Assembly: GCF_003172875.1 (NCBI RefSeq)
Contig: NZ_QGKM01000021.1
Coordinates: forward strand, 1-34,625
Source of the DNA: Leucothrix pacifica
GTDB lineage: Bacteria > Pseudomonadota > Gammaproteobacteria > Thiotrichales > Thiotrichaceae
DNA length: 34,625 nucleotides
Direction: 5' to 3'
In this document: positions 23,459-34,112 of the stretch, in pieces
Numbering within the stretch: position 1 is the first letter of the stretch
Layout: each line of letters starts with the position of its first letter
Position numbers and translations under genes: made by a program
The notes under the pieces: generated by a model
The model's database searches: none
What the model saw: the letters and a program-made list of their open reading frames with translations, nothing else
What the model was told of the DNA's origin: nothing

Positions 23459-24559
23459 ATGTCTAAAGCACCCTTTGAATTAGCCCTGAGCTACGACACC
23501 GTCAACACATCCGACTACCCATCAGATGCTCAAACCGTGGGTTCTACTGCATTCAATCAGCAGCTGCGTGAACAACTGGAAAAGCAATACCAGTCACTCG
23601 GTGGCGATCTTAAACTCGTCTTTGGTGAGCACAGCGTACTGATTAAATGGCACGCCGGAGACTCTGTTGAGCAACAACGCGCACAAGCCTTAGGTTTTTT
23701 AAAAGCGGGCGAATATAGCCAAGCGATTCCCCTGTTAAATGCAATTCTTGAACATGATCCGAACGACACGGACAGCTTGTATAACCTTGGCATGGTGTAT
23801 AGCGATCAGGGCAAACTTGATGATGCGGTTAGCCTCCTGACGAAAGCCACGGAAACCGACCCGAAACATTACCATGCGTTTGTGGCCTTAGGCGTCGCTC
23901 ATCTGAGACAAGGACAGGTTGAGCCTGCTGAGACGGCCTTGAAGCAAGCCCTTAGCATTGAGTCTGATGATCCTTATGCGCTGCGAACGTTGGCAGCCAT
24001 ACACATGCAGAAGCAGGACTATATTTCTGCGATCAGTGTATTACGACATGCCCTGAGTTTGTTGCCGAGTGATTCGATTAGCTTGTTAAATCTCGCCACC
24101 TGCTTGTTTAAAACCGGGCAAGACAAAAACATTAGCGAAGCCAAAGAAATGGCCGCCGCCCTTATCGCCACCAATACGGGCAATGAGATCGAAGAAAAAG
24201 CCAAAGACCTGCAACGACAAATTGGCTATCACCAGTTCCGTAAAGACTCTGGCGAGCACGAAAACTCAGACGCGGTGTTTTATTGCATTGACGCCTTGAG
24301 GCGACTTAAAGACGCCAGTGACAAAGAAGCCGCTGCCGTTGCACTCGAAGTGGCTCAGCTCGGTCAAAACGGCCTCAACATTAATGACCCTGAAGTGACT
24401 TACACCATAAAAAGCTTCCCCGGCGACTTCACTGGACTTGCATTGGTTTGCCTGCTGCATGTGGCCGTTCAGAAAGTCTCACCGGGCAGTAACTCGGGGT
24501 TTGATGTGCAGGAGAAGTATGAGATTGCGAAAGGTTTGTTTGAAGCTAAGCAAAGATGA
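23459..24559 (+). CDS. Tetratricopeptide repeat (TPR) protein
   Basis: After an N-terminal part of about 65 residues without repeats (FELALSYDTVN, FGEHSVLIKW), residues 75-215 hold about four TPR units. Examples are ALGFLKAGEYSQAIPLLNAI, DTDSLYNLGMVYSDQGKLDD, HAFVALGVAHLRQGQVEPAE and ALRTLAAIHMQKQDYISAIS, each with the expected small and aromatic residues. Residues 230-366 form another helical domain that I do not recognise. TPR domains serve protein-protein binding. It is translationally linked to the upstream unknown gene (two-base gap), and the two products probably interact. No signal peptide or membrane helix is visible. Confidence 0.85.
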   Translation: MSKAPFELALSYDTVNTSDYPSDAQTVGSTAFNQQLREQLEKQYQSLGGDLKLVFGEHSVLIKWHAGDSVEQQRAQALGFLKAGEYSQAIPLLNAILEHDPNDTDSLYNLGMVYSDQGKLDDAVSLLTKATETDPKHYHAFVALGVAHLRQGQVEPAETALKQALSIESDDPYALRTLAAIHMQKQDYISAISVLRHALSLLPSDSISLLNLATCLFKTGQDKNISEAKEMAAALIATNTGNEIEEKAKDLQRQIGYHQFRKDSGEHENSDAVFYCIDALRRLKDASDKEAAAVALEVAQLGQNGLNINDPEVTYTIKSFPGDFTGLALVCLLHVAVQKVSPGSNSGFDVQEKYEIAKGLFEAKQR

Positions 24560-24605: not shown

Positions 24606-24878
24606 TCATTCAGCAAGGCCCAAGCGCTCTCTTGCTCCATCAAGCGTTACTGTACGCCCTTCCCTGACATCCATTAAACCCTGAACAATCGCATTGAAGA
24701 AGTCACGCTGCTCTTGTACTTCTTCATAACTATTCAAGTCCTGAACAACCGCGACACCACGTCCACGACTCGTTAATAGAACGGGGCGATGTGTTTGAGC
24801 GGTATGCTTTACGATCTTGCCAGGATTGACTTTTAACTCTGTCAAAGGAACAACATCTTGAGAGAATCGAGTCGACAT
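24606..24878 (-). CDS. Type II antitoxin, Phd/YefM family (orphan)
   Basis: The 90-residue protein begins MSTRFSQDVVPLTELKVNPG and has the Phd/YefM hairpin THRPVLLTSRGRGVAVVQDL. The C-terminal segment after YEEVQEQRDFF is helical and acidic. I choose the ATG at 24878, which has AAGG eight bases upstream and matches the usual start of relatives, over ATG 24893. A RelE/ParE-type toxin would be expected downstream on the same strand, but the 46 bases to the TPR gene hold none, only stops. It is therefore an orphan antitoxin or the survivor of a broken module. Confidence 0.85.
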   Translation of the reverse strand: MSTRFSQDVVPLTELKVNPGKIVKHTAQTHRPVLLTSRGRGVAVVQDLNSYEEVQEQRDFFNAIVQGLMDVREGRTVTLDGARERLGLAE

Positions 24879-24994
24879 ACCTTGCACCTTCATATATTAA
24901 GTGACCTGATAATAGCACCAGTTAAGCGCCCAAAAAAACAACTCAACCAGTCATCAATAACGATAAAGCTGCGCCAAAGAGCAATATAATTTAC

Positions 24995-25023
24995 TTAGAC
25001 CTTACCAAATGAAGTGATATAAT
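24995..25023 (+). promoter_or_regulatory. Sigma70-type promoter of the restriction operon
   Basis: TTAGAC (24995-25000) and a perfect TATAAT (25018-25023) are separated by exactly 17 bases, 57 bases before the first operon start codon. No other promoter of this quality was noticed before the downstream genes, so it likely drives all four. Confidence 0.7.
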
Positions 25024-25079: not shown

Positions 25080-28000
25080 ATGTATTTAATTGACAACATC
25101 AATGACCGTTTAGGTGATGACTTAAAAAAAACAATTAAAACAGGCTCAAAACTCCAAATTGCCGCATCATGCTTTTCTATATATGCCTACGAAGCACTCA
25201 AAGACGAGCTTGAAAGTATCGAATCATTAGAGTTCATCTTCACATCACCAACCTTTGTAGAATCCGAAGTCGCAGACAAATTCAGAAAAGAGAAACGCGA
25301 GTTCTTCATCCCCAAAGAAGAGCGCGAAAAAAGCTTCTACGGGAGTGAATTTGAAATACACCTAAAAAACAAACTTACCCAGAAAGCGATTGCCAAAGAG
25401 TGTGCCAACTGGATCAGGCGGAAAGTGACGTTTCGTTCAAATACAACTGGCTCACCCATGCAACAAATGGCCATTTTGAGAACTGAGGTAAACGAGCAAG
25501 TATATTTCCCTTTACAAGGCTTCACCGCGGTTGATCTCGGTTACCAAGCAGGAAATGCCGCATCGAACTTTGTTAACCGCCTCGAGCCACCCATAACAAA
25601 AGGCTACATAAATGTTTTTGAGCAACTCTGGGACAACCCTGAACAAGTTGATGATGTAACAGAAAGGTTAATTAACCATATCTCAACGGTTTACCAAGAA
25701 AACTCCCCCGAGCGAATCTACTTTCAGCTTCTCTACAACATTTTCAGTGAGTTCCTGGAAGATATCAATGAAGACGTATTGCCCAATGACAAAACCGGAT
25801 ATAAAAACAGCTTGGTCTGGAATAAGCTGTTTAACTTCCAGCGTGATGCCGCTACGGGCATTATCAACAAACTCGAAACATTCAATGGCTGCATACTTGC
25901 TGATAGTGTTGGATTAGGTAAAACCTACACTGCACTGGCAGTTATGAAATATTACGAGCTACGTAATAAGTCTGTGCTTCTCTTGTGCCCCAAAAAGCTC
26001 TCGGACAATTGGCTTAACTTCAACCGAAACCTACTTACTAACCCATTCGTTAAAGATCGGTTCGCTTATGATGTGCTTTGTCACACAGACTTACAAAGAA
26101 CCTCTGGTGAGTCATTGGGTATGCCTCTCGACCGTGTCAACTGGGGAAATTACGATCTCGTTGTTATTGACGAGTCCCATAATTTCAGAAATAACAACGC
26201 TCAAAAAGACAAAGAAAACCGTTACCAAACTCTGATGAATAAAGTCATTAGAGCAGGTGTGAAAACGAAAGTACTCATGCTCTCAGCAACGCCTGTCAAC
26301 AATCGCTTTAGTGACTTACGCAACCAACTCGCCTTAGCTTATGAAGGTGACTCTAAGTCAATGCAGGAACAAGTAGGGACAACGCACAGTATTGAAGATA
26401 TATTCAAACGCGCCCAAACATCCTTCAACCACTGGGCAGAGCTACCACCCGATGACAGGACAGCTGCGCGATTACTCGATGCGCTCGATTTTGACTTCTT
26501 CAAACTACTAGATAGCGTAACAATTGCTCGCTCCAGAAAGCACATTGAAACCTTCTACGATACGAGCGAAATTGGCCGCTTCCCTGAGCGTAGAAAACCA
26601 CTTTCTTTTCACCCACCATTAACAACACGAGAAGATGTCATAGGGTTTAATGATATTTTCAAAAATCTTTCACAGCTTAAAATGGCCGTGTATGCCCCAA
26701 TAAGCTACATACTCCCCAGCCGGCTTAAAAAGTATGAAGACATCTACGATACAAATGTCAGTGACGGGAAAAGCACACTGCGACAAGCTGACCGTGAGAA
26801 GGCGCTTCAGCGACTGATGACAATAAACCTCCTCAAACGACTAGAAAGCTCTGTTCACGCTTTTCGTATGACACTACAAGGACTTAGCGATACGCTAACA
26901 ACTGCGCTCGAAAGTATAGAGCGCTTTAAGCAAAGTGGGAAAGATGCAGGCTTTGGCTACGAGTTTCCCGATGGTGAAAGTTCCGACTTCGATTTTGAGG
27001 ATGAAAATGACCTAGAAGGAATCAACTCTGGTTTTGCTACAGGCGGAAAAGTACAAATCGATCTGGCTGATATGGATTTAGCAACATGGGAATACCACCT
27101 GTGGGAAGATTTATCTCACATTACAGATCTGCTTGATGAAATGGAAAAGGTGACACCTGAGTACGATGCAAAGCTGAATCATCTCAAGAGTCACCTTCGT
27201 CAAAAGTGGGCAACCCCAATCAACCCAGGTAACAAAAAGGTACTTATCTTTACAGCATTCGCTGATACGGCTGATTACTTATACGATAACCTAGCATCTG
27301 ATACTTTAGAGACTTACCAACTTCACTCAGGGAAAGTCACCGGCTCAAGCTCTGCAAAATCGACTCTCGGTAAAGGCTACGACTTTCAAACACTACTCAC
27401 ATTGTTTTCCCCAGTGTCAAAAGAGAAGTCGAACGTAATTCCAGAGGAACCAAATGAACTTGATATACTCATTGGCACAGACTGTATTTCGGAGGGTCAA
27501 AACCTCCAAGATTGTGACTACCTCATCAATTATGACATTCACTGGAATCCGGTCAGAATTATCCAGCGCTTTGGGCGTGTAGATCGTATCGGATCGTCAA
27601 ATGAAAGTATCCAACTTGTTAATTACTGGCCGGACATAAGCCTTGATGAATACATCAATCTAAAAGAGCGTGTGGAAAACCGAATGGTCATTTCGGACAT
27701 TACCGCAACAGGTGATGACAACGTCTTGAAAGCAGAAGCAAACGACGTTGCTTACCGAAAAAAGCAGCTCAAAAAAATGAAAGATGAAGTAATTGACATG
27801 GAAGATGTTAGTGGTGGCGTGTCAATAACCGACTTGGGCTTGAATGAGTTTCGTATGGACTTACTCAATTACATAAAAACCAATGGTGATATGCGTGCTG
27901 CACCGAATGGAATGCATGCTGTTGTTCCTGCAAACCCTGAGAAAGGGTTACTACCCGGTGTTATTTACTCGCTACGAAACCGCAACCACAGTGTCAATAT

Positions 28001-28355
28001 AAACCAACAAAACCGCTTGCACCCATACTACCTGATTTATATTTCAGAAGACGGTGAGGTCATCATCAATCACATGCAAGTGAGACCGCTTCTGGATCAC
28101 GTCAGAGCCGCTTGTAAAGGAAGAACTGAGCCTATCCCATCAGCCTTTGAGCATTTTAATACCGTTACAAAAGATGGTCGTGACATGCATTTTTACTCTG
28201 ATTTACTTGATAAAGCTATTGCCTCAATGATCGAAGTAAAAGAAACCAAGGATATTGAAAGCCTGTTTGGAAACAGAGAAACCACAGCAAAACAACATGA
28301 TATTGCGGGATTAGATGACTTTGAACTGATTAACTTTATCGTTGTGGTGGATTGA
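25080..28355 (+). CDS. PLD-like domain / SNF2-family DEAD-box helicase
   Basis: The 1091 residues fall into a phospholipase-D-like N-terminal part (about 1-175) and a SNF2-type superfamily 2 helicase. In the first part LQIAASCFSIYAYEALKDEL and EFIFTSPTFVES fit the fold, but only a lone HLK (94-96) recalls the HxKxxxxD motif and the Asp is absent, so phosphodiesterase activity is doubtful. Helicase motifs are complete: I, DSVGLGKT (275-282); II, DESH (364-367); III, LMLSATPVNNR; then FTAFADTADYLYDNL; V, GTDCISEGQNLQ; VI, QRFGRVDR (829-836). It should translocate on DNA using ATP. It heads a four-gene operon with DUF4391 and a type III restriction pair and is absent from classical type III systems. 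Confidence 0.93.
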   Translation: MYLIDNINDRLGDDLKKTIKTGSKLQIAASCFSIYAYEALKDELESIESLEFIFTSPTFVESEVADKFRKEKREFFIPKEEREKSFYGSEFEIHLKNKLTQKAIAKECANWIRRKVTFRSNTTGSPMQQMAILRTEVNEQVYFPLQGFTAVDLGYQAGNAASNFVNRLEPPITKGYINVFEQLWDNPEQVDDVTERLINHISTVYQENSPERIYFQLLYNIFSEFLEDINEDVLPNDKTGYKNSLVWNKLFNFQRDAATGIINKLETFNGCILADSVGLGKTYTALAVMKYYELRNKSVLLLCPKKLSDNWLNFNRNLLTNPFVKDRFAYDVLCHTDLQRTSGESLGMPLDRVNWGNYDLVVIDESHNFRNNNAQKDKENRYQTLMNKVIRAGVKTKVLMLSATPVNNRFSDLRNQLALAYEGDSKSMQEQVGTTHSIEDIFKRAQTSFNHWAELPPDDRTAARLLDALDFDFFKLLDSVTIARSRKHIETFYDTSEIGRFPERRKPLSFHPPLTTREDVIGFNDIFKNLSQLKMAVYAPISYILPSRLKKYEDIYDTNVSDGKSTLRQADREKALQRLMTINLLKRLESSVHAFRMTLQGLSDTLTTALESIERFKQSGKDAGFGYEFPDGESSDFDFEDENDLEGINSGFATGGKVQIDLADMDLATWEYHLWEDLSHITDLLDEMEKVTPEYDAKLNHLKSHLRQKWATPINPGNKKVLIFTAFADTADYLYDNLASDTLETYQLHSGKVTGSSSAKSTLGKGYDFQTLLTLFSPVSKEKSNVIPEEPNELDILIGTDCISEGQNLQDCDYLINYDIHWNPVRIIQRFGRVDRIGSSNESIQLVNYWPDISLDEYINLKERVENRMVISDITATGDDNVLKAEANDVAYRKKQLKKMKDEVIDMEDVSGGVSITDLGLNEFRMDLLNYIKTNGDMRAAPNGMHAVVPANPEKGLLPGVIYSLRNRNHSVNINQQNRLHPYYLIYISEDGEVIINHMQVRPLLDHVRAACKGRTEPIPSAFEHFNTVTKDGRDMHFYSDLLDKAIASMIEVKETKDIESLFGNRETTAKQHDIAGLDDFELINFIVVVD

Positions 28356-28364
28356 GCAATCACT

Positions 28365-29057
28365 ATGTCCTTTATACCTTTTAAATTCCCCCCTTCAACT
28401 GAACTTACACCACTTGGTAAAAGAGTTCCGAAGGAGACTATTTATCAGCAAACTGACCCCAGCAATGAAATTAAGCAGCTTTTTGTAAATCAAATTGCTG
28501 AGATACGCTGGCGCCATAAACTGGCGAGTGACACGTTGAATATACCTGCGACGGCTGAAGTATCTGAGATTCAGGTGTTTGATATTACGTTGAAGCCCGA
28601 TGTTTCATCACTTGACCTTCGAGTCTTAGAAACCCTCGATAAAACCATTCCATCAACAATTTATTACCAAATTTATGATGCGCAGAAAAAAACAGTGCAA
28701 TGCATCATGGCTGCCAAACGGGCGAATGTCCGAAACGAAAAGCAAATGATTATCCAAGATTACTTTAGTACTGAATGGGTAAAGCTCACTGATGAATACC
28801 AGAATATACCCATTGCTGTAGACCTGACTAGTTTATATCAGGCGCTACTGCGTAGCCTATTAACTGAGCCTGCCCTGCCCAATGAAAGCTTGACTTCACA
28901 GCTAGAACGAATTGCTCTACTGAAGCAATACCGACTATCGCTATCAAAGTTGCAAAACCAACTCAAGCGAGAGAAACAATTTAATCGAAAAGTTGATGTT
29001 AATAAAAAGATCAACCAACTTAAAATACAGATAGAGAGAAACACAGCGCATGGATAA
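28365..29057 (+). CDS. DUF4391 domain protein
   Basis: The 230-residue protein fits DUF4391: a short basic N-terminus, FVNQIAEIRWRHKLASDTLN, VFDITLKPDVSSLDLRVLET and TIYYQIYDAQKKTVQCIMAA. The final 55 residues are lysine-rich and predicted coiled coil (LLKQYRLSLSKLQNQLKREK). The family has no assigned function but is often found beside SNF2 helicases and type III methyltransferases. It starts nine bases after the helicase stop and overlaps the mod gene by 8 bp, so translation is coupled. It may be an adaptor between the PLD/helicase protein and the Mod-Res complex; this is inference. Confidence 0.88.
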   Translation: MSFIPFKFPPSTELTPLGKRVPKETIYQQTDPSNEIKQLFVNQIAEIRWRHKLASDTLNIPATAEVSEIQVFDITLKPDVSSLDLRVLETLDKTIPSTIYYQIYDAQKKTVQCIMAAKRANVRNEKQMIIQDYFSTEWVKLTDEYQNIPIAVDLTSLYQALLRSLLTEPALPNESLTSQLERIALLKQYRLSLSKLQNQLKREKQFNRKVDVNKKINQLKIQIERNTAHG

Positions 29058-31050
29058 ACTTAAAATGCACAGCCCTGATCTTGCAGACCAGAATATTAAT
29101 AAAATTGCCGACCTATTTCCTCACTGTATTACTGAAGCCAAAGACGAGGACGGTAATATCCGTAAAGCAATTGATTTTGATCTTCTGCGACAAGAACTAT
29201 CCCGTGAAATAGTCGAAGGGCCACAAGAAAGGTATCAACTTAATTGGCCAGGTAAGCGTGAGGCTTTGCTAACCGCTAACGCTCCTATATCAAAGACACT
29301 ACGACCATGCCGAGAAGAAAGTGTTGATTTTGATACCACAGAAAACCTGTTTATTGAAGGTGATAATTTAGACGCACTGAAGCTACTTCAAGAAACATAC
29401 CTAGGTGCTATTAAAATGGCTTACTTAGACCCTCCTTATAATAGAAAAAAAGGTGAGAACTTAGTTTATAGAGATAGCTTTGTCGGTAGTACATATGATT
29501 ACTTAGTAGATACAAATCAAGTTGATGATGAAGATAAAAAACTTGTAAGCAACTCAGATTCAAACGGTCGTTTCCACTCTGACTGGCTTACGATGATTTA
29601 CCTAAGAATTAAGTTAACTAAAAATATTTTATCCGATGATGGAATCATCGCAATTTCAATTGATGATAGTGAAACATCTAATATACGACAGTTATGTGAC
29701 TGGGTGTTTGGCGAGTCAAATTTTGTGGGCACTATAATTTGGAAAAATGTTACTGATAATAATCCTACTAATATTGCAATAGAACATGAAAGCATTCATG
29801 TATATGCGAAGTCTAAATCAAAACTAGAAAAGAGTTGGAAGTCAAAAATATCTTCAATAAAAGATGTACTCATAAATATCGGAAATGAGCTAAATTGTAA
29901 GTATTCAGAACAGCATGACTTACAAAAAGCATACACAAAATGGTTCAAAGTGAACAAATCTGAACTTGGCCCACTAGATAGATATAAATACATTGATGAA
30001 GGTGGAATATACACAGGTAGCCAAAGCGTACACAACCCGGGAAAAGAAGGATATAGATACAATATTTTACACCCTGTAACAGGAGAAAACTGCAAACAAC
30101 CACTCATGGGTTATAGGTTTCCGGAAAGTACAATGATAAAGCTCCTAGAGGACGATAAAGTCTTATTTGGAGATGATCACAACAAAACTATTGAACTAAA
30201 AGTCTATGCAAAAGATTTCACAGACAAGCTCTCCAGTGTTTTTCACTTAGATGGAAGAACAGGCCCTTACGACCTAAAACAACTTTTCCCAGAGACTAAA
30301 AAAGCCTTCTCTAACCCTAAACCTGTAAAACTCATGGAGCGGCTATTAACTTTTATGGTTGGTAGAAATGAAATATGTATAGACCTTTTCGCCGGCTCAG
30401 CGAGTACTGCTCATGCACTTATGGGGCTAAATATTGATGGTGGAAGAAGAAAGTTTATTGAGCTCCAGTACCCAGAAGAAATTACAGGTAAAACTAAAGA
30501 CTCAAAGCTATCATTAAAGCTATGTAAGGATTTAAACTTGCCCCCAAAAATATCTGAGATTTCAAAAGAAAGAATAAGGCGTTCGGCAAAAAAAATTCTT
30601 GATGAGAACAAAAATACCGAAGGTATAGAAGAACTTGATACTGGATTTAGAGTTCTAAAAATCGATAGCAGCAATATGACCGATGTCTATTACAACCCAG
30701 ACCAAATAATTCAAGGCGGCCTATTCGATAACATCGATAATGTAAAATCAGACCGTACAGAAGAAGATTTATTGTTTCAGGTCATGCTCGACTGGGGAGT
30801 GGACTTAACTCTTCCAATTAACAGAGAGTCTATAGACAATAAGACGGTATTTTTTGTAGATAATAACTCACTGGTTGCCTGCTTTGATAACAATGGTGGT
30901 GTCACGGAAGATTTTGTGAAAGAACTTGCCCAACATGAACCACTTCGTGTTGTATTTCGTGATGGTGGCTTTGCTTCAGACAGTACAAAAATCAATGTAG
31001 AGCAAATCTTCAAACAACTATCTCCAATGACCGATGTGAAGTCTATTTAA
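29050..31050 (+). CDS. mod: Type III restriction-modification DNA methyltransferase (Mod)
   Basis: The 666 residues form a beta-class N6-adenine methyltransferase. Catalytic motif IV is YLDPPYNR (DPPY at 127-130), preceded by [20 protein letters not shown], and the SAM-binding motif I is DLFAGSAST at about 445-452, in the order typical of type III Mod. The target-recognition region lies between them. Mod both methylates one strand of an asymmetric site and gives the Res subunit its specificity. It overlaps DUF4391 by 8 bp, and res follows 14 bases later. The middle of the gene (about 29.4-30.7 kb) is strikingly AT-rich, with AGA/ATA/AAA codons, unlike both ends and the neighbouring genes. Confidence 0.95.
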
Positions 31051-31064
31051 GGAGTATTTTAACC

Positions 31065-34000
31065 ATGAAGCTCCAATTTAAGCATCAGAAATACCAAGCA
31101 AATTCAGTACAGTCGGTTATCGAGTGTTTCAAAGGTCAAGTTCCGACAAAAGAAGGGATCGATTATAAAATTGACCCCGGTGTTGTCGCACGCGGAGAGA
31201 GTCGCTCGACTGTTAGTCACGTCGATGGTTTTCGAAACGCTGAAATACAAATCAGCTCCGAGCAATTACTAAAAAATGTTCAAGAAAACCAAAGACATCA
31301 AAACCTGCCACAGTCAACAGAGCTAGTAAAAACTAAGGCCAGTCCTATCAACCTTGATATTGAAATGGAGACTGGCACAGGTAAAACCTATTGTTATATC
31401 AAAACCATGTTTGAGCTTAACCAAGAATATGGTTGGACTAAGTTTATTATCGTTGTACCGAGTATTGCCATTCGTGAAGGTGTACAAAAGTCGTTTTCAA
31501 TAACAAAAGAGCACTTTTTACAGCTCTACAGTAAGCAAGCCAGGTCTTTCATTTATGATTCCAAACAACTTCATCAGATAGAAAGCTTTTCATCAGATGC
31601 CGGTATCAACGTCATGATTATCAATGTTCAGGCGTTTAACGCACGTGGCAAAGATGCCAGACGTATTTATGAAGAGCTGGATGGCTTTCAAACACGCCGT
31701 CCTATTGATGTAATAAAAGCAAATCGTCCAATCATGATATTGGATGAGCCCCAAAAGATGGAAGGCAAAAAGACGCTGGACTCTTTTGCAGAATTTAATC
31801 CCTTGTTTATGCTTCGCTATTCTGCAACACATAAGACAGAACACAATAAAGTGTTCCGTCTTGATGCACTTGATGCCTACAACCAAAAGCTGGTGAAAAA
31901 GATTGAAGTGCGAGGTGTCACTGTTAAAGGTTTAGCAGGTACTAATGCGTACCTGTTCTTTAGTCACATCGATATATTCAAAAACAAGCCCCCTGTCGCC
32001 CAAGTAGAATTTGAGCAGAAATTAAAAGGCGGTGGCATTAAGCGTGTCTTCCGCAACCTAAAGAAAGGCGATAACTTATACGACCTATCGAACGAACTAG
32101 ACCAGTACAAAGATAACTTTATCGTCGCTAATATTGATGCAAACACAGATGTCATTAGCTTTCTAAACGGTGTCGAGCTTACTGTTGGTGATGCTGTCGG
32201 CAATGTCAACGAGTCAGCGATTCGTCGTATTCAAATCCGTGAGGCCGTGCGTGCTCACCTTGAGAAAGAACGGCAACTTCACACTCTTGGCATCAAAGTA
32301 CTCTCTCTTTTCTTTATTGATCAAGTGGCTAAGTACCGTGACTATGAACAAGCTGATGAAAAAGGTGAGTATGCCCGTATCTTCGAGGAAGAGTATCAGC
32401 TTGCATTGAACGACTTCAGGGAAATCTTTGATGACGCATACCAAAAGTACTTATCTGGCATTGATGCCGAAAAAACCCATAAAGGTTACTTTTCTATTGA
32501 TAAAAATTCTAAGCGCTTAGTTGATTCAAAATTGGCTGCTCGCTCGACGGATACGGATGATGTTGCAGCATATGACCTTATCCTTAAACAAAAGGAACGC
32601 CTTCTCAGTTTTAAAGAACCGACCCGTTTTATCTTTTCACACTCCGCACTAAAGGAAGGCTGGGATAACCCCAATGTCTTTGTTATTTGTGCCCTAAAGA
32701 AGAGTGACAATAGGATTACTCGTCGCCAAGAAGTTGGGCGTGGACTCCGTTTGTGTGTTAACCAGCATGGTGAGCGTATGGATACACCCACACTGGTTCA
32801 TGACATCAACCGTCTCACAGTTATTGCGAGTGAAAGTTACAAAGACTTTGTAACAGCCCTTCAAAAGGAAACTATCGACTCGCTTTCAGCTAGACCGCGA
32901 AAAGCGGATCAAGAATACTTTACTGGCAAGGTATTCACGACATCGGAAGGTGATGTAGAAGTTAACGAGGTGATGGCTAAGCTCATCTACAAATACTTAG
33001 TACGCAATGATTATGTAAATGACGAAGATGATCATATTAGCGAGACATATCACCAAGCAAAGACCGATGAAAAACTGGCAGAGCTACCCGAACCCTTACA
33101 GCCCTATGCTCAACAAGTGTTTGAACTCATAGACACGGTTTATTCTGATAAGACGCTCCCTCTCCCGGAGGACAGCCGAAAAAATAAAACCAACCCACTC
33201 AATGATAATTTTGACAAAAAGGAGTTTCAGGAGCTTTGGGCACGCATCAATCATAAAGCCATTTACAATGTTGACTTTGACTCAAACGAGTTGATTAAAA
33301 AAGCAATTCCAGCACTCGATATGAAGTTAGTTGTTGATAGGCTTCACTATAATGTTGTGCGAGGAGAACAAGTTGACAATGTTAGTTACGACAAGATGAA
33401 ATCTGGTCAAGGCTTTAAGATCAAGGAAACAGAAACCGACTCCCTCCATTCATCCATACAGTCACATGTGAAATATGACTTACTTGGGAAAATATCTGAT
33501 GGCACTAAGCTCACGCGCCGCACAGTTGCCAGTATCCTGCAAGGCATGTCTGAGCGTGCTTTTCTTCAGTTTAAAATGAATCCTGAGGATTTTATTTCAA
33601 AAGCAGTTAATTTGATTAATGAGCAAAAGGCGACAGTTATTATTGAGCACCTTGCTTATGACACAATCGATGACAAGTTTGACCGCGACATTTTTACCGC
33701 AAACCAAAGCAAACAAGACTTCACCAATGCCGGTGAGCCGCTCAAGCGTCATATTTACGATTACTTAGTCACCGACTCAAATACTGAGCGTAACTTTGCG
33801 AAAGAACTGGAAGCTGCGCAACACGTGACGGTTTATGCCAAACTCCCGAACGGTTTTTTCATCCCAACACCCGTGGGTGATTACAATCCCGACTGGGCAA
33901 TTGCCTTTAAGGAAGGTTCGGTAAAACACATTTACTTTATCGCTGAAACTAAAGGTAGCATGGACTCTTTGCAGCTACGCGAGGTTGAAACGACAAAGAT

Positions 34001-34112
34001 TGAATGTGCGAAAAAGTTTTTTAGTAACATTGCTAAAAGTAACCCGGAACAAGCGGTCAAATATGATGTTGTCGATACATTCGAAAGCTTGATGACGATG
34101 GTTAGGCAGTAA
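31065..34112 (+). CDS. res: Type III restriction enzyme, helicase-nuclease subunit (Res)
   Basis: At 1015 residues it has the length of type III Res. Walker A is METGTGKT (101-108), motif II is the type III variant DEPQ (227-230), followed by [10 protein letters not shown], and motif VI is [10 protein letters not shown] (553-562). Near the C-terminus a PD-(D/E)xK nuclease shows NPDWAIAF (D943) and AETKGS (E961, K963). All catalytic residues are present, so the enzyme should cut unmethylated DNA after ATP-driven communication between two sites, together with Mod. AAGGAG precedes the ATG by nine bases. It closes the four-gene operon; its sequence is less AT-rich than the middle of mod. Confidence 0.96.

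Follow-up and report, generated by a model that had tools for sequence, protein, structure and literature searches.

The window analysed here, positions 1 to 34,625 of contig NZ_QGKM01000021.1 from Leucothrix pacifica, contains an operon that joins the modification (Mod) and restriction (Res) subunits of a type III restriction-modification system to an SNF2-family helicase (HEL) and a DUF4391 protein. We found that these four genes are one system: they keep their company, and mostly their order, across distant hosts, and HEL, DUF4391, Res and the two ends of Mod have diverged in step while the target-recognition domain (TRD) of Mod was swapped freely. The helicases of such loci form a single clade and have lost the HKD nuclease motif. 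We consider the chances slightly better than even that the operon encodes a four-subunit type III variant, in which HEL and DUF4391 would act as a second motor docked on Mod-Res and help Res to cut. The features of the locus are listed below.

24996-25023, + strand: promoter-like site TAGACC-16-TATAAT, with TG before the -10 element (10 of 12 matches)
25080-28355, + strand: HEL, SNF2-family helicase, 1091 amino acids (open reading frame, ORF; PADLOC family C3a139, 'HKD+Snf2', E 4.1e-125)
25080-25784, + strand: HEL residues 1-235, degenerate PLD/HKD domain (alignment with HKD-intact relatives)
25458-25526, + strand: HEL, about residues 127-149, MQQ... and PLQGFT in place of the HxK..D and GSSNxT of intact relatives (alignment)
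28365-29057, + strand: DUF4391 protein, 230 amino acids (PF14335, 163.4 bits; AlphaFold2 mean predicted local distance difference test score, pLDDT, 93.8)
28890-29048, + strand: C-terminal helical hairpin of DUF4391 (residues 176-228), with a conserved EKQFNRKV near the turn
29050-31050, + strand: Mod, type III adenine methylase, 666 amino acids (PADLOC MTase_III, E 6e-204; EcoP15I Mod, E 2.7e-132)
29851-30219, + strand: TRD of Mod, about residues 268-390, EcoP15I-like (81 of 122 positions identical to EcoP15I TRD 263-384)
31065-34112, + strand: Res, type III restriction subunit, 1015 amino acids (PADLOC REase_III, 1087 bits; EcoP15I Res, E 2e-74)
33747-34076, + strand: endonuclease domain of Res, PF19778, residues 895-1004 (E 1.2e-32; D..ExK-type pattern in 83 of 83 loci)

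Co-occurrence and co-divergence of the four genes

The neighbourhood survey proposed in the initial annotation showed that the four genes co-occur. Starting from DUF4391, we opened the best 80 of 239 places, with one genome per species, a sample that is biased to near relatives of the query. HEL lay within 700 nucleotides on the same strand in 79 of the 80; the HEL-less exception (L023) has just 478 nucleotides ahead of DUF4391, and one locus counted among the 79 (L022) keeps DUF4391, Mod and Res with only a 62-residue HEL remnant. Mod followed DUF4391 in 77 of the 80, in a few cases as a fragment, and both Mod and Res were present in 64. For 13 of the 16 loci without Res, under 3.8 kb of sequence remains; the other three (L023, L034 and L088) show no Res in 7 to 10 kb. 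A 4-nucleotide overlap between the HEL and DUF4391 ORFs occurs in 56 of the 79 loci, and we take it as a sign of coupled translation. Judging by record titles, hosts of these DUF4391 loci belong to several proteobacterial classes, Planctomycetota, Verrucomicrobia, Synergistota, Chlorobi, Bacteroidota and other groups.

Surveys of 369 genomes of the class and 398 of the phylum are fairer, but are confined to the window's own class and phylum. Searching the class with HEL gave 18 matches at 1e-40, and 14 scored above 800 bits. Of these 14 strong helicases, 11 had DUF4391 (10 directly next to it), two (G183 and G254) were followed by a methylase with a DUF4391-like N-terminus, and one (G329) sat at a contig edge. 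A gene that we read as DUF262-like lies between HEL and DUF4391 in G303, where the operon is split over two contigs, and G356 (L110) has the variant order Mod, Res, HEL, DUF4391. DUF4391 itself was matched in 15 of the 369 genomes at E 0.001, in 13 of them above the cut-off; the two matches below it (G183 and G254) each stand directly behind a HEL gene. One of the 13, the copy in G205, is degraded, with no Mod or Res in the 9 kb downstream and about 260 nucleotides of contig upstream. The phylum survey gave 22 HEL matches at 1e-60. Among the 19 strong loci newly opened there, 18 had DUF4391 (16 with Mod, two at a contig edge) and one (L213) had a methylase; the weak locus L232 (228 bits) had neither.

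The same arrangement is found on mobile elements. HEL matches 103 plasmid records. HEL or DUF4391 hits led us to 17 plasmid loci, of which 16 carry HEL, DUF4391 and Mod in that order. Res is complete in 15 of these 16 and cut short in L233; L234 is archaeal, and the seventeenth locus, from Planktothrix, is a HEL-methylase pair. Hosts of the four-gene plasmids include Listeria, Enterococcus, Lactococcus, Acinetobacter and E. coli. On viral contigs, 21 of 23 matches were near-full DUF4391 proteins, preceded by HEL in all 21 cases and accompanied by Mod in 18 and Res in 16; the loci without Mod or Res end at the locus edge. A record labelled as a phage (L008) carries the same four genes. E. coli copies were found in 10 of 5,426 complete genomes, with 10 of their 11 places on plasmids. 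One of the plasmids, pLAO18 (L004, IncFIB), gave us the impression of a phage-plasmid by its size and gene names.

Co-divergence was measured on 83 loci with all four genes complete and on an inner set, the 64-locus clade around the window. Over the 83 loci, pairwise distances among HEL, DUF4391, Res and both ends of Mod correlated at 0.80 to 0.97, whereas the TRD correlated with these parts at 0.06 to 0.10 and with its own methylase core at 0.38; the core correlated with the other parts at 0.44 to 0.51. Within the 64-locus clade, the values were 0.81 for DUF4391 and HEL, 0.75 for DUF4391 and Res and 0.78 for HEL and Res (Mantel p 0.001), against 0.01 for the TRD and DUF4391 and 0.00 for the TRD and HEL (Mantel p 0.42-0.43). 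Because the distances of the parts correlate and those of the TRD do not, we conclude that the system is inherited largely whole while its DNA-reading domain is exchanged, and that HEL and DUF4391 are independent of specificity and are not passengers. The ends of Mod that track HEL and DUF4391 are those that, in EcoP15I, contribute to the dimer (the N-terminus) and hold Res (the C-terminus of one Mod) (PMC4490356).

The initial annotation had described the four genes as one functional unit, a claim borne out by the surveys starting from DUF4391, from HEL and from viral contigs together with the co-divergence. It had also envisaged that HEL and DUF4391 might lie beside Mod and Res at random. 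The linkage of HEL and DUF4391 in 79 of 80 loci and in 21 of 21 viral ones, with which the HEL-first surveys agree, speaks clearly against this. Our ORF check reproduced the reported order on one strand and the gaps of 9, -8 and 14 nucleotides. The single strong promoter also reported has a candidate in the TG-extended site upstream of HEL, but the region holds 16 promoter-like sites against 21.1 expected in shuffles, and a shared promoter is therefore plausible rather than demonstrated. The L. pacifica assembly contains one DUF4391 match. Upstream of the operon lie an ORF resembling a Phd/YefM-type antitoxin (window 24606-24893, - strand) and a gene for a TPR protein (window 23459-24559, + strand).

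Two slots in the operon accept extra genes, identified by Pfam on one member per cluster. Mostly between DUF4391 and Mod are UvrD-like, OLD with DUF2130, SIR2 with HerA, Abi_2 and KilA-N genes. Mostly between Mod and Res are AlbA/Schlafen with HATPase, Fic, YhcG nuclease, RhuM, Bro-N, a weak PLD match and AAA_21; the AlbA/Schlafen-HATPase cluster is the largest, with 11 members, 10 of them in this slot. The slot genes near Mod make up an effector-like set that changes from locus to locus. Schlafen and OLD families are named among the backup effectors of BREX-type systems in PMC12839542.

A type III core, a degenerate nuclease domain and a candidate connector

The initial annotation had called Mod and Res a full type III pair with all catalytic motifs, and this is upheld by homology to EcoP15I, Pfam domains and motif patterns. 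Mod is a beta-class adenine methylase with an inserted recognition domain and DPPY, the latter present in all 83 complete loci, the window included; our own pattern for motif I fits 55 of the 83 and fits the window's Mod. Res combines a superfamily 2 motor (PF04851) with a C-terminal PD-(D/E)XK-type endonuclease (PF19778). Its Walker A motif is found in 82 of the 83 loci and its DEP, motif VI and D..ExK-type pattern in all of them, and the window's Res carries every one; the NCBIfam type III endonuclease model scores 363 bits on it, below the cut-off of 564. Pfam finds SNF2-rel_dom, Helicase_C, DUF4391, N6_N4_Mtase, ResIII and RE_endonuc in the four proteins. The window's TRD shares 66% identity with that of EcoP15I, and Mod retains the equivalents of Asn232, Asn233 and Pro324, the residues round the unpaired thymine. 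On these grounds the window's Mod probably recognises CAGCAG.

The motor of HEL is preserved, with Walker A, DESH, SATP and motif VI in all 83 complete loci, the window included. The HEL N-terminus can be aligned to the PLD/HKD domain that related helicases carry, but the motif residues and GSSN loop are substituted. The initial annotation had observed that the HKD aspartate seemed to be missing. It is gone, but not alone, since the histidine, the lysine and the GSSN loop are gone as well. A pattern search of all 124 HELs of at least 900 residues found the HKD motif in none of 110 four-gene HELs (one of which lacks the region), compared with five of five HELs paired with a methylase and lacking Mod and Res; the 110 include many close relatives and are not 110 independent events. 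Among nine cut or unclassified HELs, the pattern occurs in two distant relatives (L138 and L232). The aligned aspartate column holds D in three of the five methylase-paired HELs only, and Pfam PLDc_2 lies above its cut-off in all five. At E 0.001, a Pfam scan of the window's HEL gave no PLD domain, and the four-gene HELs L104, L182 and L183 had none either. The motif loss in the alignment, the pattern search and Pfam strengthens the earlier suggestion of a binding rather than a cutting role, and we regard the domain as probably a dead nuclease that now only binds. In a tree of helicase cores (46 leaves, with outgroups of our choosing), the four-gene HELs form one clade with support of 1.0, sister to the HKD-intact L115 and L213.

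DUF4391 matches PF14335 far above the curated cut-off of 29.9 bits. Its confident AlphaFold2 model consists of an alpha/beta domain and a helical hairpin, the architecture that would be expected of a connector. Mean identity over the 83 loci is 0.38-0.41 for DUF4391 and 0.66 for the HEL core, so that DUF4391 is the fastest-changing part after the TRD. We considered DUF4391 as a specificity factor and rejected the idea, as its distances are independent of the TRD (r 0.01, Mantel p 0.42); in five complete loci with the window's TRD, DUF4391 is 33-36% identical to the window's, compared with a mean of 32% in the rest (TRD sharers excluded). A known fold was likewise sought and not accepted: Foldseek gave no match at E 0.001 against PDB and BFVD, VIA-align rows covered mostly the hairpin (best Z 7.6), a profile search of PDB sequences was weak (best E 0.15), and nothing beyond helical hairpins was convincing. 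PADLOC and NCBIfam had no match for the protein. Two IMG/VR contigs encode an identical 100-residue ORF (L261:2437-2739 and L262:6518-6820) with the hairpin motif of DUF4391 only (KEKQFNRKIEIN) and no HEL, Mod or Res nearby; L261 also encodes a portal protein. We see two possible readings of this ORF: an anti-restriction protein with which phages imitate the hairpin, or an ordinary coiled coil.

Proposed mechanism, origin and alternatives

We favour a model in which HEL and DUF4391 are an arm of the same complex as Mod and Res, on the strength of their shared descent with Res and the Mod ends and of the loss of the HEL nuclease motif. Mod would read and methylate the site through its exchangeable recognition domain, and Res would supply the nuclease and a motor of its own, as in EcoP15I. 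HEL would be a second, SNF2-type DNA motor with a dead nuclease domain, and DUF4391 the connector that docks it on the Mod ends and Res. Type III enzymes methylate one strand, and cutting requires two inverted unmethylated sites. Once Mod-Res meets unmethylated DNA, HEL-DUF4391 would move along or remodel it, and the benefit may lie in clearing bound proteins, gathering complexes or enabling Res to cut where the arrangement of sites defeats classical enzymes; the whole would presumably serve in defence against phages. A single complex is the simplest account because the HEL nuclease is gone where Res cuts, the motor motifs are kept and the parts are inherited together.

The origin of the arrangement is hinted at by five two-gene loci (L115:4604-10802, L116:2-5144, L188:8521-14103, L213:3954-11237 and L235:4250-10913), in which an HKD-intact SNF2 helicase is paired with a large N6-methylase of the Eco57I/type IIG-like kind, with no type III Mod or Res. 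Two of the methylases are cut by contig ends and that of L213 is split in two ORFs. These loci may themselves be a separate restriction system that has no name yet, and DUF4391 and the methylase N-terminus have a probable common origin. The ancestor would then have been a helicase-nuclease/methylase system that acquired type III Mod-Res and dispensed with the nuclease it had. We advance more tentatively, and rate somewhat short of even, the fuller proposal of a hybrid restriction class with two unlike DNA motors in one complex. Its ancestor would have lost the nuclease and the methylase bearing the DUF4391-like part, and kept the helicase and the DUF4391 connector, plugged into Mod-Res. Such a class would restrict where classical type III enzymes cannot, for example at single or wrongly oriented sites, and would change specificity by TRD swaps only.

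Several observations weigh against the docked-motor model or its proposed origin. Mod-Res can work without HEL-DUF4391, as EcoP15I illustrates and as is seen in the class sample, where 15 of 26 Res-positive genomes have no strong HEL. In a midpoint-rooted Res tree, the four-gene Res proteins fall in two clades with classical Res between them; their HELs are one clade, and so one HEL-DUF4391 pair may have joined Mod-Res on two occasions, or it may have been lost from some type III systems. Among the loci with the nearest Res, the sequence of L170-L172 stops at Mod or shortly ahead of it; in L173 and L174, HEL is absent and the Mod genes are broken. When close pairs are omitted, correlations with the HEL core within the clade fall to 0.56 for DUF4391, 0.59 for the Res motor, 0.38 and 0.28 for the Mod ends and 0.04 for the TRD. 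The AlphaFold2 model of HEL, built from 35 close rows, is poor (mean pLDDT 57.4). As to the common origin, the Pfam DUF4391 model matches three of four methylase N-termini below the curated cut-off (best E 1.5e-5), and hhalign of DUF4391 against the methylase N-terminus is weak (E 0.0066, probability 5.7%).

The best-surviving alternative, which we judge unlikely, makes HEL-DUF4391 a control arm that, as long as the host genome lacks methylation, restrains Res or strips Mod-Res from DNA. This would suit a system that switches hosts on plasmids, as the many plasmid records of HEL suggest, and the co-divergence with Res and the Mod ends fits it equally well; the paired HELs without Res nevertheless keep an active-looking nuclease motif, so that the ancestral job of HEL would have been restriction. 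We give less credence again to a separate defence layer that has nothing but the operon in common with Mod-Res and recognises self by Mod methylation, as proposed for DISARM-like systems. Relatives of HEL do work with a methylase and no Res in the paired loci, but the nuclease motif is lost in all 110 four-gene loci, so that Res would be needed for cutting, and the distances of HEL and DUF4391 track Res as well as the Mod ends. That HEL and DUF4391 are mere passengers of Mod-Res is very improbable: other genes do enter these operons, and G205 and L022 show DUF4391 (degraded in G205) without Mod and Res and without an intact HEL, respectively, but inserted genes differ by locus, whereas the HEL-DUF4391 pair stays constant from phylum to phylum and is present on an archaeal plasmid too.

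Relation to known systems

Annotation treats HEL and DUF4391 as separate from the type III Mod-Res. The PADLOC run envisaged in the initial annotation matched the type III Mod and Res and assigned the helicase to C3a139, but returned nothing for DUF4391. A full-text literature search, with subscription papers mostly outside its coverage, found no published account of the four-gene system and no meaning for C3a139; it found the name DUF4391 in one paper only, in a table that lists domains tied to host strains non-permissive for the epibiont TM7x (PMC7784981). Should HEL-DUF4391 broaden cutting by Mod-Res, type III restriction would have to be understood and counted differently, DUF4391 would gain a likely role, and HEL would be a clear example of a nuclease domain that decayed in the presence of a cutting partner. 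The natural copies in E. coli make the model testable in laboratory strains. As a separate observation, another locus (L175:5530-17592, in G201) has type III Mod-Res beside a GmrSD-like protein and a WYL gene; its SNF2 helicase is of another, DrmD-like kind (716 bits against PADLOC DrmD), and the locus is possibly a parallel union of type III with another helicase.

Comparison with helicase-containing systems shows likeness in parts. DISARM has an SNF2 helicase (DrmD) beside an adenine methylase (DrmMI), but the NCBIfam DrmD model scores 147 bits on HEL against a cut-off of 610, and in PADLOC none of the DUF4391, Mod and Res proteins matched DrmB or DrmC; for HEL, the best 25 of 41 PADLOC families were considered. 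PbeABCD and Type-2 BREX-related systems, as described in PMC10853773 and PMC12839542, likewise place a helicase with an N-terminal HKD/PLD domain beside a DNA-modification enzyme, and the HKD-intact relatives of HEL match PADLOC PbeA weakly. Their partners are different, however (an ABC ATPase and a DndE-like protein; a DUF499 ATPase and DUF3780), and their HKD nuclease is mostly held to be active, whereas in the four-gene HEL it is lost and the partner is Mod-Res. Pfam found no DUF499 ATPase or DUF3780 in the four proteins, the upstream TPR protein or ten further ORFs of the window. A few of the MORC-linked restriction-modification operons described in PMC2292703 have an HKD domain on the helicase, with a gene set unlike the four-gene one.

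Two further comparisons are with the two-gene HEL-methylase loci and with the classical type III enzymes. The former share the helicase family and, in at least three of the methylases tested, a DUF4391-like N-terminus, but keep the HKD motif intact and contain neither a type III Mod nor a Res. Descriptions of type III enzymes speak of two subunits. EcoP15I and EcoP1I resemble the four-gene system in Mod and Res, which are homologous over most of their length and have the same catalytic motifs, but EcoP1I (L181) consists of mod and res only, whereas HEL and DUF4391 are constant additional partners here. We therefore class the system as a variant of type III rather than a classical member, since it has the features of Mod and Res but does not consist of Mod and Res alone.

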